The notes under the pieces were generated by a model. It ran no database searches and had not been told where the DNA came from. It saw nothing but the letters and a program-made list of their open reading frames with translations. From assembly GCF_946476835.1 (NCBI RefSeq), contig NZ_CAMKWA010000003.1, positions 62,001 through 126,000 on the forward strand: a DNA stretch of 64,000 nucleotides, read 5' to 3'. This DNA is from an uncultured Neokomagataea sp. (GTDB taxonomy: Bacteria > Pseudomonadota > Alphaproteobacteria > Acetobacterales > Acetobacteraceae). Position 1 is the first letter of the stretch. Every line of letters begins with the position of its first letter. Of this stretch, positions 12,293 to 16,727 are shown in pieces. Made by a program: the position numbers and the translations under genes.

Positions 12293-13279
12293 ATGGCTGC
12301 CTCCCTTCGCGTCGCCGTGCAGATGGACCCGCTTGAGCAGGTCGATATCAATGGAGATTCCACGTTTGCTTTGATGCTGGAAGCACAGGCGCGGGGGCAT
12401 AAACTTTGGGTTTATCCGGTGACGGAACTGAGCTTGTCTGAGGGCGGAGCCGGCGATGTGGCCGGGCGTTTACGTGCGCGTGCACGCTCCGTTGAGGTGC
12501 GCCGTCAGCAAGGGGCACATGCGACATTTGGCGCGGAAGAGATGGTGTCACTTGCCAGTACAGATGTTGTGCTGATGCGTCAGGATCCGCCATTTGATAT
12601 GGGTTATATTACAGCAACGCATTTGCTTGAGCATGTGCATGGTGTGGGTGAAGGGCGGTCTTTAGTGGTGAATGACCCTGCTGCCGTACGCAATGCGCCA
12701 GAGAAATTATTGGTAACGCATTTTCCACATTTAATGCCGCCGACTTTGATTGCTTGGAGCCCGAAGGAGATTGAAGCCTTCCGCGATGTGCACAAAGACA
12801 TCATCGTGAAGCCACTTTTTGGTAATGGTGGTGCGGGTATCTTCCGTATTAAGCCGGATGACGAAAATTTGAAGTCATTGCTGGAAATGCACTTTGCGCG
12901 TTCACGTGAGCCGTTGATGATCCAACGTTATGAACCCGCTGTGCGGCAAGGGGATAAGCGGATCATTTTGGTTGATGGCCAACCAATTGGTGCGATTAAC
13001 CGTGTGCCTGCGGAGGGTGAAGCACGGTCGAACATGCATGTTGGTGGCCGCGCAGTGCGGGTGGACCTGACTGAGCGTGACCGTGAGATTTGTGAGGCGA
13101 TTGGCCCTTATCTGCGCGATAACGGGCTTATCTTCACGGGCATTGATGTTATCGGTAATTGGCTGACGGAAATCAACGTGACATCACCGACAGGCCTGCA
13201 AGAATTGGATCGTTTTGACGGGATTAATAGTGCAGGTTTAATTTGGGATGCGATTGAACGCCGTTTGAGTGCGTCTTAA
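12293..13279 (+). CDS. gshB: Glutathione synthase
   Basis: ATP-grasp ligase joining gamma-glutamylcysteine and glycine to make glutathione. It has 328 residues. The N-terminal domain opens LRVAVQMDPLEQVDINGDSTF. The ATP-grasp part includes VKPLFGNGGAGIFRI, MIQRYEP, GDKRIILVDGQPIGAINR, RSNMHVGGRA and the metal-binding end GIDVIGNWLTEINVTSPTG. ATG 12293 has AAGGA seven bases upstream; an in-frame reading that extends 10 codons further back lacks a site. The gene follows the transposase remnant, so its original promoter may have been altered by the insertion. Confidence 0.97.
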   Translation: MAASLRVAVQMDPLEQVDINGDSTFALMLEAQARGHKLWVYPVTELSLSEGGAGDVAGRLRARARSVEVRRQQGAHATFGAEEMVSLASTDVVLMRQDPPFDMGYITATHLLEHVHGVGEGRSLVVNDPAAVRNAPEKLLVTHFPHLMPPTLIAWSPKEIEAFRDVHKDIIVKPLFGNGGAGIFRIKPDDENLKSLLEMHFARSREPLMIQRYEPAVRQGDKRIILVDGQPIGAINRVPAEGEARSNMHVGGRAVRVDLTERDREICEAIGPYLRDNGLIFTGIDVIGNWLTEINVTSPTGLQELDRFDGINSAGLIWDAIERRLSAS

Positions 13280-13482
13280 GCGCCCTGCTTATCCTTGGTG
13301 GCCGGTGCCGGGGGCTTTTCCTTAAAGGGATAAGCCGCGGCGAACTCCTCGGGCGTCGTCTCGGGGAGGTGGTCTTTTGTCAGCTTATTACTAAGCCAAG
13401 GGCGTAAGCTGTCCTTAAAATAGAGCAGGTAGACTGTTGGCCATACAAGCGCCACGAAGCAGATCAAGATGATGTTGAGCAT
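13276..13482 (-). CDS. Small single-span membrane protein
   Basis: A 68-residue hypothetical. Residues about 2-20 (LNIILICFVALVWPTVYLL) form one transmembrane helix, followed by a polar tail with PETTPEEFAAAYPF and Pro/Ala/Lys-rich end. The ATG at 13482 has TGGAGG nine bases upstream, a good site, so translation is likely. Its stop overlaps the gshB stop on the other strand by 4 bp. No family recognised. Confidence 0.6.
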   Translation of the reverse strand: MLNIILICFVALVWPTVYLLYFKDSLRPWLSNKLTKDHLPETTPEEFAAAYPFKEKPPAPATKDKQGA

Positions 13483-13644: not shown

Positions 13645-14301
13645 ATGTCCTCACCTTCATCGCCCCAATCAGCGCTTGATGCTGAAGCCGTAAAAGCAGC
13701 ATATCGCCGTTGGGCACGTGTTTATGACACCGTGTTTGGCCGTGTATCAGGAATGGGCCGTAAGCGCGCGGTAGCTGAAGTCAACGCTTTGCCCGGTGAG
13801 CGTGTGCTCGAAGTGGGGGTTGGCACGGGATTAGCCCTGCCGTTTTATAACCAAAATAAGCGCATTACAGGGATCGACCTCTCTGAAGACATGTTGGAGC
13901 GTGCGCGTATGCGTGTGCTGCAAAAAGGTCTGACGAATATTGATGACCTTGTTGAGATGGATGCTGAAGCCACGCGCTTTGAAGATAATAGTTTTGATAT
14001 TGCAGTGGCGATGTTCGTGGCGTCTGTGGTGCCACATCCGGATCGTTTGCTTGCAGAGTTGAAGCGGATTGTCCGTCCGGGCGGCCATATTTTGTTTGTG
14101 AATCATTTTTTAGCACAGGGCGGTTTGCGCTTGGCAATTGAGCGCGGCACGGCCAAGGCATCACGGTCTTTGGGGTGGAATACTGATTTCGCGATTGAGA
14201 CTTTGTTGCCGCCAGAGGACTTGGCGCGGGCAAGTATTCGCCCTGTCCCGCCGATGGGCTTCTTTACACTCGTGACATTACCGCACGACGGTTCTAAATA
14301 A
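13645..14301 (+). CDS. pmtA: Phosphatidylethanolamine N-methyltransferase
   Basis: A 218-residue class I SAM-dependent methyltransferase of the soluble Rhodobacter-type PmtA group, which methylates phosphatidylethanolamine stepwise to phosphatidylcholine at the membrane surface. AYRRWARVYDTVFG at the N-terminus is characteristic. The SAM motif I is VLEVGVGTGLALPFY near residue 52, motif II ends ITGIDLS, and the post-motif region has LKRIVRPGGHILFVNHF. Acetic acid bacteria make phosphatidylcholine and it is linked to acid tolerance in the group. Substrate assignment rests on family resemblance. Confidence 0.85.
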   Translation: MSSPSSPQSALDAEAVKAAYRRWARVYDTVFGRVSGMGRKRAVAEVNALPGERVLEVGVGTGLALPFYNQNKRITGIDLSEDMLERARMRVLQKGLTNIDDLVEMDAEATRFEDNSFDIAVAMFVASVVPHPDRLLAELKRIVRPGGHILFVNHFLAQGGLRLAIERGTAKASRSLGWNTDFAIETLLPPEDLARASIRPVPPMGFFTLVTLPHDGSK

Positions 14302-14434: not shown

Positions 14435-15640
14435 ATGTTGTTCCCGGCCATTACGTCACGCCCGGCTTTTTCAGTACAAAAGTTGGGCATTTCTTATGTG
14501 TTATTGGCACTTTTTGCAGGCTTATTGGGTGGTATTCTTGCTGTCCCTGAGGGCGGCTTTGCGGTAACGCCCGGTTTGGTTTTGTGCCACGGCATTTTAA
14601 TGGCTTTTTTTGTGGTTGTGCCAGCGTGTTTGGGCGGCTTTGGTCAGCTCTTATTGCCGAAAGAACTGGGTGTAGAACGCACATTATTGCCCGGTATGTC
14701 ATTTGCGGGCTTTGGTCTCTTATCGTCTGGCGTTGTGCTGTTGCCGCTTTTGCCTTTGTTGTCCTTATTGTTATGGGCACTAGGTGCTGTGGCCGTTGCG
14801 ATGGATGTTCTCGTGACAGTGCTTGAGGGACGTTCGCAGGCGTTTCGGGCATTGACGCCGATGGTCTGGTCATTACTGGTGACAGCCTGTGGTGTTGTGG
14901 TCGTCGCACCTGCGCTGGCTGCAATGATAACGCGCACAACCTTCTCAGTTTTGGGGGCAACGCCGCATGATGCGCATGTGATGTCGGCAGCGTCTTTCGC
15001 GCATGTGTTACAAATGCCAGAGGCAGCGTTGATGCTGGTGCCCGCATTGGGGCTGACATGCTCTTTATTGCCTGTGGGGGGGGGAGCGCTCAGTGTGCGT
15101 ATTGCACCGTATGCTTTTGCGTGTGCGGGCGTACTCGGCCCAATCTTGTGGCTGGACAGTATTTTTCAACCCTATTCGCAGGTCGTTGTGCGGGCTATGA
15201 CATGGGCAACGCAAATGCTTCCCGCTGTCGTGATGCTCGGCGCGTTGTTGCGTGATGTCTGGGTTGAGCGTCGCTCTTTGGATGGTGTGGCGTATTGGGG
15301 GCTGGGTGCCCTTTTATTGTTGACGGCGGGCTGGGGGCCTTCACTGCTCATGGTTGAGGGTAGTCACTCGGCGGCGGCTTTCGGTAGCCTGATGGCCGTA
15401 TGTGGTGGGCTTTATGCATGGCTGAGTAGTCTTGCTGGTGGGCGTGTGCCGGGGTGGTTGTGCCGAGGGCACGCAGCGGTCACTCTTCTGGGGGCGTTGT
15501 GTTCTTTAACCCCGTCTCTCGAGGTTATTGGGGGCGCTGTGATGGGCGTTAGTCTGCTGGGTTTTGTGGCTGTCGGCATTGTTCTCGGTTGGTGTTTCGT
15601 TCAAGATCAGGCTGAGCGGCGTATGAGTGTCTCATCATGA
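14435..15640 (+). CDS. Degenerate cytochrome c oxidase subunit I (CtaD) homologue
   Basis: A 401-residue polytopic membrane protein alignable by eye with CtaD, though canonical subunit I has about 530 residues. Shared landmarks are LCHGILMAFFVVVPACLGGFG (CtaD helix II), PMVWSLLVTACG and MPEAALMLVPALGL (helix VI, HPEVY region), ILWLDSIF (helix VII, HH region), and SHSAAAFG...GGLYAW (helix X, HFH region). His52 and His311 match the low-spin heme ligands. The high-spin heme and CuB ligands are gone: HPEVY is MPEAA (His to Met194, cross-linked Tyr to Ala198), the His pair is Asp241-Ser242, and the heme a3 His is Gly309. It cannot reduce oxygen in the usual way. Its stop overlaps the ctaB start (ATGA), so the two are translationally coupled. 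Confidence 0.8.
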   Translation: MLFPAITSRPAFSVQKLGISYVLLALFAGLLGGILAVPEGGFAVTPGLVLCHGILMAFFVVVPACLGGFGQLLLPKELGVERTLLPGMSFAGFGLLSSGVVLLPLLPLLSLLLWALGAVAVAMDVLVTVLEGRSQAFRALTPMVWSLLVTACGVVVVAPALAAMITRTTFSVLGATPHDAHVMSAASFAHVLQMPEAALMLVPALGLTCSLLPVGGGALSVRIAPYAFACAGVLGPILWLDSIFQPYSQVVVRAMTWATQMLPAVVMLGALLRDVWVERRSLDGVAYWGLGALLLLTAGWGPSLLMVEGSHSAAAFGSLMAVCGGLYAWLSSLAGGRVPGWLCRGHAAVTLLGALCSLTPSLEVIGGAVMGVSLLGFVAVGIVLGWCFVQDQAERRMSVSS

Positions 15641-16602
15641 GTGGTGTGAGTGCATTTGCCGCATTGCGTGCGCACCCCTTTGTCGCTCTCTTGAGTGAAC
15701 CGGGAGCAGGTGGGGAATCCTCGCTACGTGAATGGTTGGCGCTTTTGAAGCCACGGGTTATTTCGCTGGTTGTTTTTACAGGCGCTGCGGGCATGGCAGT
15801 GGCCCCGAAATGGCCCTCTATTCCACTTGGTCTGATTACCATCTTGTGTATTTGCATTGGTGCAGGTGCCGCAGGTGCCATTAATATGTGGTACGATCGT
15901 GACATCGATGCCGTTATGCGGCGTACAGCGACACGGCCTATTCCCGATGGGCGGATGGGGGCAGAGGGCGCGTTATTATACGGTATTGTGCTCTCTGTAT
16001 TATCCGTTGTGGTGTTGGGGTTGGCGACAAATGCGCTGGCTGCGGGCATTTTGGCATTTTCAATTTTTTTCTACAGCGTCATTTACACCATGTGGCTTAA
16101 GCGCCGTACGCCGCAAAATATTGTCATTGGCGGTGCAGCAGGTGCATTCCCCCCGATGATTGGCTGGGCAGCATCTATGGATAGTTTATCCGTCTTGCCT
16201 GTGGCCATGTTTGCGATTGTTTTTTTATGGACGCCGCCACATTTCTGGTCGCTCTCGCTTTATGCGTGCAAGGATTATGACGCGGCGGGGATACCGATGT
16301 TGCCCGTCGTCCGTGGTGCGCGTCATACGCGTTGGCAAATTCTGCTTTACACTTTTATTCTTACTGCGTGTTCTTTGGCGCCGTCTGTGACGCATGAATG
16401 TGGGTGGTTTTATACCGTGACGACATCTTTGCTGGATGCGGGATTTATCGCCTGTGCGGTGCGGGTTTTGCGGGATGAACAGGATGAACGTGGGGTAAGT
16501 TTGACGAAGGATGCACCAGCACGTTTCGCGTTCCGGTATTCGTTGGCATATTTGTTTTTGCTGTTTTGTGGCTTATTGGTTGACCGGGTTTTGTTAGCAT
16601 GA
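15637..16602 (+). CDS. ctaB: Protoheme IX farnesyltransferase (heme O synthase)
   Basis: UbiA-family prenyltransferase that farnesylates heme b to heme O, the cofactor of cytochrome bo3 ubiquinol oxidase and precursor of heme A. It has 321 residues and about nine membrane helices. The catalytic Asp-rich motif NMWYDRDIDAVM is at residues 83-94, followed by RRTATRPIPDG; the second motif YACKDYDAAGIPMLPVV lies in the C-terminal half. Start overlaps the upstream CtaD-like gene by 4 bp, and the stop overlaps the next small gene by 4 bp. In this group heme O for cytochrome bo3 is the likely main product. Confidence 0.96.
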   Translation: MSGVSAFAALRAHPFVALLSEPGAGGESSLREWLALLKPRVISLVVFTGAAGMAVAPKWPSIPLGLITILCICIGAGAAGAINMWYDRDIDAVMRRTATRPIPDGRMGAEGALLYGIVLSVLSVVVLGLATNALAAGILAFSIFFYSVIYTMWLKRRTPQNIVIGGAAGAFPPMIGWAASMDSLSVLPVAMFAIVFLWTPPHFWSLSLYACKDYDAAGIPMLPVVRGARHTRWQILLYTFILTACSLAPSVTHECGWFYTVTTSLLDAGFIACAVRVLRDEQDERGVSLTKDAPARFAFRYSLAYLFLLFCGLLVDRVLLA

Positions 16603-16727
16603 CGAGTAATGAGGCTTCTCAAGCGATATCCGCACGCGCACGACAGAAAAGCCGGATTATCGGTCTGGTCGGTGGTATCGGGCTATTTGTTATTATTATT
16701 TACGTGATTACGTTGATACGCTTTTAA
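16599..16727 (+). CDS. CoxF/COA3-like small membrane protein
   Basis: A 42-residue protein beginning MTSNEASQAISARARQKSR, then a single transmembrane helix (IIGLVGGIGLFVIIIYVITL) and a short basic end. The layout of basic cytosolic stretch plus one helix ending in a V-x-x-I-R-type tail, directly after ctaB with a 4-bp ATGA overlap, matches the CoxF proteins of alphaproteobacterial oxidase operons, related to mitochondrial COA3. Short length limits certainty, but coupling to ctaB and the terminator 36 bp downstream support a real gene. Confidence 0.72.
   Translation: MTSNEASQAISARARQKSRIIGLVGGIGLFVIIIYVITLIRF

Follow-up and report, generated by a model that had tools for sequence, protein, structure and literature searches.

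A heme-copper oxidase subunit I homologue of acetic acid bacteria that has lost the oxygen-reducing site and keeps both low-spin heme ligand positions beside the heme O synthase gene

The gene directly upstream of ctaB in the analysed stretch of DNA (64,000 nucleotides from an uncultured Neokomagataea sp., hereafter the window) encodes a heme-copper oxidase subunit I that is reduced to its low-spin heme half. This protein, pseudo-CtaD, is homologous to CtaD and is encoded in the old place of ctaD. It has lost the active site, retains both axial ligand positions of the low-spin heme, is under strong purifying selection and is constantly linked to ctaB (Table 1). On the best reading, pseudo-CtaD has been re-purposed as a bis-histidine heme protein of the membrane and acts jointly with CtaB in making heme O or handing it to the bo3 oxidase. 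The selection and the ligand retention are observed, and the binding of heme and the role are inferred. The protein represents a clear case in which the enzyme reaction has been lost and one cofactor site is still under the strictest selection, and our data suggest that a dead-looking respiratory gene has been turned into a heme-handling protein in acetic acid bacteria.

Table 1. Features of the pseudo-CtaD locus, in coordinates of the window
Feature	Position	Strand	Description
CtaD* (pseudo-CtaD)	14435..15640	+	401 aa, 12-helix heme-copper oxidase subunit I homologue without active site
His52 codon	14588..14590	+	position of low-spin heme axial ligand (R. sphaeroides H102), helix II; His in 122/122; CAT 70, CAC 52
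Trp145 codon	14867..14869	+	Trp in 122/122; invariant in 26 CtaDs too
Met194..Ala198	15014..15028	+	in place of helix VI CuB His and cross-linked Tyr; His in 0/122, Tyr in 0/122
Trp239 codon	15149..15151	+	Trp in 122/122; invariant in 26 CtaDs too
Asp241-Ser242	15155..15160	+	in place of CuB His pair; both His kept in 0/122
Gly309	15359..15361	+	in place of high-spin heme His; His at this column in 2/122
His311 codon	15365..15367	+	position of low-spin heme axial ligand (R. sphaeroides H421), start of helix X; His in 122/122; CAT 98, CAC 24
PmtA-like methyltransferase	13645..14301	+	conserved neighbour on the upstream side; precedes ctaC-ctaD-ctaB in G148 as well
ctaB, heme O synthase	15637..16602	+	PF01040; NF003349 above cut-off; the genome's only match above the TIGR01473 cut-off
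42-aa ORF	16599..16727	+	one hydrophobic stretch; ATGA overlap with ctaB stop; no Pfam match

The pseudo-CtaD ORF begins with ATG, runs through its 401 codons without interruption and overlaps ctaB in an ATGA at positions 15637–15640, as the earlier note on this DNA had stated. That note had also taken the protein for a CtaD homologue by eye, and profile, sequence and structure searches agree on this point. Pfam COX1 (PF00115) matched the window protein with an E-value of 1.4e-7 and 31.2 bits, just below the cut-off of 34.8, and the best phmmer match among PDB sequences was subunit I of the R. sphaeroides aa3 oxidase (1m56_A, E = 4.4e-12); the Foldseek matches are given below. The homology to CtaD and oxidase subunit I is beyond chance. 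Many of the orthologues score above the PF00115 cut-off, and the divergent ones of genomes G097 and G104 are missed by this model altogether. No NCBIfam family was matched by pseudo-CtaD up to E = 1. Among named organisms, Neokomagataea anthophila carries the nearest relative (95% identity), ahead of N. thailandica (79%) and of Gluconobacter species (46–51%).

The window genome (G000; 2.44 Mb in 33 contigs) contains only two PF00115 matches, CyoB and pseudo-CtaD, with cyoB on a different contig (C2), and a real ctaD elsewhere in this genome was rejected on the basis of these matches. CyoB, of the bo3 ubiquinol oxidase, belongs to the same superfamily, and no other full heme-copper subunit I was found there; unlike pseudo-CtaD, it has the full active-site His set. 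The genome retains the heme O synthase and the CyoB oxidase despite the absence of any match to the models of heme A synthase (ctaA), SURF1 or CtaG/Cox11.

Structure prediction, which had been proposed as a check on the initial assignment, returned a 12-helix oxidase fold. AlphaFold2 with 27 near relatives gave a pLDDT of 81.2, with values under 50 at residues 305–311. With 49 diverse members, a second model reached a pLDDT of 91.2 and a pTM of 0.91 and displayed 12 long helices, with a weaker block (70) at residues 301–310, just before His311. In this second model, His52 lies in helix II (46–72) and His311 starts helix X (311–333). Its best Foldseek match is complex IV subunit I (E = 2.5e-11, TMq 0.79), and the best 50 PDB matches, judged by their titles, are all heme-copper oxidase chains or respiratory complexes holding one. 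As modelled, pseudo-CtaD meets the description of a heme-copper oxidase subunit I fold.

In the phmmer alignment, residues 52 and 311 of pseudo-CtaD fall on residues 102 and 421 of 1m56_A, the two histidines (H102 and H421 of R. sphaeroides subunit I) that hold the low-spin heme a axially. This is the placement that the earlier note had given to the two histidines. Its reading of the oxygen-reducing site, with Met and Ala in place of the helix VI His and the Tyr, Asp-Ser in place of the His pair and Gly in place of the high-spin His, was reproduced by MAFFT alignments, in which M194, A198, D241-S242 and G309 fall on H284, Y288, H333-H334 and H419. Residues 284, 333, 334 and 419 are the ligands of CuB and heme a3. 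The gap beside M194 is placed differently by phmmer and MAFFT, and neither alignment puts a His there. Across the 122 intact sequences, none of the four active-site His columns is kept in 86, one is kept in 35 and two are kept in a single sequence. Judged from these alignments, pseudo-CtaD does not satisfy the requirements of a functional oxygen reductase, namely three CuB His, a high-spin heme His and a cross-linked Tyr.

Pseudo-CtaD shares with CtaD/COX1 (A-type subunit I) the 12-helix fold, the low-spin His residues of helices II and X, the downstream ctaB and, by synteny, a common origin. It differs in lacking the helix VI CuB His, the His pair and the cross-linked Tyr in all 122 members and the high-spin His in 120 of them, and its median length is 422 aa, against about 530–545. 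A further loss, beyond those given in the earlier note, is that of the two Arg residues in the PRRY loop that anchor the heme propionates in oxidases; none of the 50 tree-set members has them (a gap in 49), and the Mg-site His of oxidases is absent from pseudo-CtaD in the alignment.

The intact set (n = 122) is composed of 26 sequences from the group of the window (g1), 46 from g55 and 50 from other genera, one per genome judging by the handles; one of the last 50, L057, is a named MAG that may also be listed under a handle. Two copies were left out: L106 (G034), which is cut by a contig end and has His52, and the interrupted copy of G366. Despite a median pairwise identity of 26% and a minimum of 15%, four positions are invariant, His52, Trp145, Trp239 and His311, and no others. 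The same four are invariant in two further alignments with overlapping members (49 and 62 rows). The loss of the two histidines in relatives, which would have spoken against the earlier note, was found in none of the intact orthologues.

A comparison with real CtaDs sharpens this picture. Among the 157 columns that are invariant in 26 real CtaDs, only H52, W145, W239 and H311 are unchanged in all 50 tree-set members of pseudo-CtaD, and the median of the 157 columns is kept in 22% of the 50. If four of the 157 columns were kept at random, two given columns would both be among them with P = 0.0005, a calculation that gives every column the same chance although the columns in fact differ. The number of substitutions per column is approximately 43 within the pseudo-CtaD clade, compared with 3.4 within the CtaD clade. 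At each of the two His sites, some members use CAT and others CAC, which indicates that the amino acid has been kept and not the DNA. On the other hand, Trp145 and Trp239 are equally fixed, and invariance alone is therefore no proof of heme.

Helices VI–VIII of the oxidases serve CuB and the oxygen chemistry, and the ligands of the low-spin heme come from helices II and X. In terms of mean column entropy, the most conserved helices are X, I and II in pseudo-CtaD and VII, VI and VIII in CtaD, and the least conserved helices of pseudo-CtaD are VIII, XII, VII, VI and XI. By this alignment-based measure, conservation has moved from helices VI–VIII to helices I, II and X.

Within g1, the dN/dS of pseudo-CtaD (Nei-Gojobori; 102 of 325 pairs, those with dS of 0.1–1.2) has a median of 0.085 and a range of 0.023–0.241, which bears out the view that the gene is under selection and not in random decay. 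For the same pairs, the median for ctaB is 0.034. Pseudo-CtaD evolves faster than ctaB, yet it is clearly under purifying selection. Three outcomes could have refuted the earlier note: a misplacement of the ligands in a proper alignment, their loss in close relatives and a dN/dS near 1. All three were examined and the results favoured its interpretation, a one-heme membrane protein under selection, which may be regarded as supported within the limits of sequence evidence.

The origin of the gene is indicated by genome G148 (g124), in which a complete ctaC, a 538-aa ctaD and ctaB lie between the same neighbours as pseudo-CtaD in the window, with the methyltransferase gene on one side and the genes for a Tim44-like protein, PmbA and an M16 peptidase on the other. 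In G148, ctaC sits between the methyltransferase gene and ctaD. No ctaC-like ORF was found between the methyltransferase gene and pseudo-CtaD in the window locus, the only place considered for this purpose. This synteny implies that pseudo-CtaD descends, in altered form, from the ctaD that once stood at this site and that the locus has lost ctaC. In a 79-sequence tree with CyoB as the outgroup, the 50 pseudo-CtaD members all fall into one clade (SH-aLRT 100), which lies beside, not inside, the A-type CtaDs and fits a single origin. The branches are very long, so the exact attachment is unsafe and the orthology rests on the synteny. An early branch is represented by the 520-aa pseudo-CtaD of G119 (g95; L162, 6453–8015, minus strand), which has a near-oxidase length and an oxidase-like C-terminus and lacks the active-site ligands; ctaC is already gone from its locus.

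The linkage to ctaB is constant, as ctaB lies directly downstream of pseudo-CtaD in 122 of 122 cases (75 + 4 + 43) and the two genes mostly overlap or touch. A small ORF similar to the 42-aa ORF of the window, recognised by eye, follows ctaB at 30 of 35 loci, comprising 24 of 29 with pseudo-CtaD and 6 of 6 with real ctaD. From these counts, the usual unit consists of the pseudo-ctaD gene, ctaB and the small ORF. In real cta clusters, we take the small ORF after ctaB to be 'CoxF'.

Pseudo-CtaD is present in all 25 other genomes of g1 and in many further genera of the family, according to a survey of 299 genomes that were not each examined singly. The 49 genomes of g55 include 46 with an intact copy, one with an interrupted copy and two with none (genomes of 1.5 and 1.7 Mb). 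These two (G376 and G256) have no heme O synthase above the cut-off either. We infer that g55 is probably Acetobacter from the large number of its genomes and from a spacing of approximately 20 kb between ctaA and cyoB, seen in two of three genomes and matching the gene numbers of A. pasteurianus. The interrupted copy (L238, G366) is the only one seen; its assembly is 86% complete, the downstream ctaB is intact, and decay and assembly error are indistinguishable in this case. In a class-wide sample of 142 genomes, only two ORFs of 400–450 aa stood at the head among the matches listed, both of this family, and the other strong matches listed were ORFs of at least about 480 aa, plus a few contig fragments.

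Ten of 13 genomes tested have no heme O synthase above the cut-off, and no pseudo-CtaD was found in these ten, an absence backed by a wider profile and known kinship only for G376 and G256. The first profile (A1) missed the divergent pseudo-CtaDs of G079, G097, G104 and G119, and its negatives are therefore not reliable absences. These four genomes were rejected as examples of ctaB without pseudo-CtaD, since the gene lies directly upstream of ctaB in each. In G026 and G102, the methyltransferase gene is followed directly by ctaB, with neither CtaD nor pseudo-CtaD between them. At these loci (L163, 5637–7353, minus strand, in G026; L166, 5204–7106, plus strand, in G102), ctaC and ctaD have been lost outright, an alternative outcome to pseudo-CtaD. 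Because of these two genomes, a rule that ctaB implies pseudo-CtaD was dropped at the level of the whole family. A tree of 41 CtaB proteins (row L120, only 12% filled, is to be disregarded) has a modestly supported branch (SH-aLRT 82) that separates the 28 from pseudo-CtaD genomes from G026 and G102, which lie together with the real-CtaD genomes. Within the pseudo-CtaD clade, every intact locus seen has retained the gene, and ctaB is accompanied by it in every case seen. Contig ends cut this place in G158, G112, G080 and G032, and G125 has a full-length oxidase subunit I near ctaB. A 701-aa ORF of G091 (L092), considered as a natural fusion of pseudo-CtaD and CtaB, was rejected as an upstream extension of the ORF, with ctaB separate.

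The gene itself is already known. A 'deranged COX1-like protein' of Acetobacter (PMC10715153) and the ctaD of A. pasteurianus (APT_01775, with ctaB as APT_01774; PMC5158111) resemble pseudo-CtaD in their position beside ctaB, their occurrence in the same bacteria and the view that they lack oxidase function. They are very probably the same gene. PMC10715153 describes a degenerate COX1-like protein that lacks all conserved metal-cofactor-binding residues. This description is contradicted by our alignments and needs correcting, since both low-spin ligands are present in every intact pseudo-CtaD, including 46 of 46 from g55 (the probable Acetobacter, by inference). PMC6915089 cites ctaB and ctaA as functional remnants. 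In the openly licensed literature, we found no description of a heme-copper subunit I homologue that keeps only the low-spin heme ligands, nor of the retention of both ligands or the selection on pseudo-CtaD.

As the retained pair is the exact ligand set of one heme and the neighbouring gene makes heme O, the binding of heme b or heme O is the simplest reading. We consider it likely that pseudo-CtaD binds heme, an inference made without binding data. The gene ctaA is missing from 24 of 24 genomes tested in 11 genera, including that of the window, and is present in the 16 others of 40 pseudo-CtaD genomes. With no heme A synthase found in the window genome and its group, the heme would be b or O, and a supply of heme A was rejected as the function in the window. 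The propionate Arg pair and the Mg-site His are gone, so that any heme in pseudo-CtaD would be held less firmly than in an oxidase; we infer that the same losses could also mean an opener site, as expected for passing heme on.

We propose that acetic acid bacteria lost cytochrome c oxidase in such a way that ctaC disappeared from the locus and the active site was destroyed, with ctaD being kept. The gene would have been re-purposed for a 12-helix membrane protein with one bis-histidine heme (b- or o-type) between helices II and X. Made with CtaB, this protein would most likely bind heme b, the CtaB substrate, or heme O, the product, and may act as a receiver, stabiliser or relay for heme O en route to the bo3 ubiquinol oxidase. 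Where ctaA exists, the target might perhaps be a ba3 ubiquinol oxidase. A role in the production or hand-over of heme O with CtaB is a tentative inference that falls somewhat short of an even balance, at which we had placed it before G026 and G102, the two relatives with ctaB alone, lowered our estimate. It is possible, and remains a conjecture, that a single event among the ancestors of acetic acid bacteria turned the catalytic subunit of an oxidase into a dedicated heme carrier, a membrane chaperone with one heme that passes heme O from CtaB to a laterally acquired ubiquinol oxidase in bacteria without SURF1. If true, pseudo-CtaD would be, to our knowledge, the first member of the heme-copper oxidase family whose job is to supply the cofactor of another oxidase. 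The route of heme O from its synthase to the oxidase is poorly known, and a conserved CtaB partner with a bis-His heme site would provide a direct handle on it. The industrial use of these bacteria rests on bo3 respiration.

Several observations limit this proposal. The adjacency of ctaD and ctaB is ancestral, being found in real ctaD-ctaB clusters too, and on its own is thus weak evidence of function. G026 has ctaB and CyoB-type oxidases, and no pseudo-CtaD was found in it, so heme O reaches the oxidase there without this protein. For the E. coli bo3 oxidase, PMC9145763 names no known specific assembly protein other than the heme O synthase. These two cases imply that pseudo-CtaD is no general need of bo3 oxidases. 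SURF1 (PF02104) was found in none of 25 pseudo-CtaD genomes tested, against 3 of 3 genomes with real CtaD; there is thus room for a different protein that hands over heme, but no proof of one. The likeness of pseudo-CtaD to this heme chaperone lies in the proposed handing of heme to an oxidase and is circumstantial; the two belong to different families, and there is no evidence that pseudo-CtaD replaced SURF1.

Pseudo-CtaD might instead hold no heme and merely act as a membrane scaffold that stabilises CtaB, as PMC10715153 suggests. Such a scaffold is compatible with the common operon, in which the genes mostly overlap or touch, and with the loss of the propionate Arg pair. It would have no need, however, for both axial ligands in 122 of 122 members while 153 of the 157 CtaD-invariant columns changed somewhere, and the published suggestion came with the claim, contradicted here, that all metal-binding residues were lost. 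We regard this explanation as rather unlikely, although it is not excluded.

A permanent low-spin heme in pseudo-CtaD could also serve electron transfer, linking for instance the quinone pool to some other carrier. In an oxidase, electrons enter through the heme whose site is retained here, and bis-His hemes are typical electron carriers. However, ctaC, the gene for the CuA-carrying subunit of oxidases, no longer lies where it does in G148. The Arg and Asp that have quinone-site roles in CyoB are both replaced by Leu in the window protein, and at the aligned columns none of 50 members has them. Apart from His, no charged residue other than R133 is kept in at least 90% of 58 members, and the lack of ctaA in the window and 23 other genomes leaves no role in heme A synthesis there. 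Electron transfer seems unlikely on these grounds but, like the heme-free scaffold, is not excluded.

It is improbable, if likewise not excluded, that pseudo-CtaD serves as a structural part of a hybrid complex with CyoA/CyoC-type subunits or with the bc1 complex; the retention of the whole 12-helix fold speaks for such a dummy subunit, but the five least conserved helices named above and the location of cyoB on another contig argue against it. Decay, with a non-functional ctaD kept by chance or by its coupling to ctaB, is close to excluded: ctaB and ctaA of A. pasteurianus reportedly work and ctaD is said to have lost its function by accumulated mutations (Matsutani 2014), one copy is interrupted in an incomplete assembly, and G026 and G102 have lost ctaD at this site altogether, but 122 intact ORFs without stops or frameshifts, a dN/dS far below 1 and ligands unchanged over so many substitutions per column reject a pseudogene.

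Two minor observations concern the surroundings of the gene. A 68-aa ORF for a small membrane protein lies at 13276–13482 on the minus strand of the window, between the glutathione synthase and methyltransferase genes, and a small ORF opposite to the operon strand occupies the same place in L088, L104, L105, L110 and L162. The pseudo-CtaD genome G121 (g97; L173) encodes an additional full-length subunit I of 546 aa with active-site His, placed near the base of the tree beside CyoB, which indicates that some of these bacteria carry another oxidase too.
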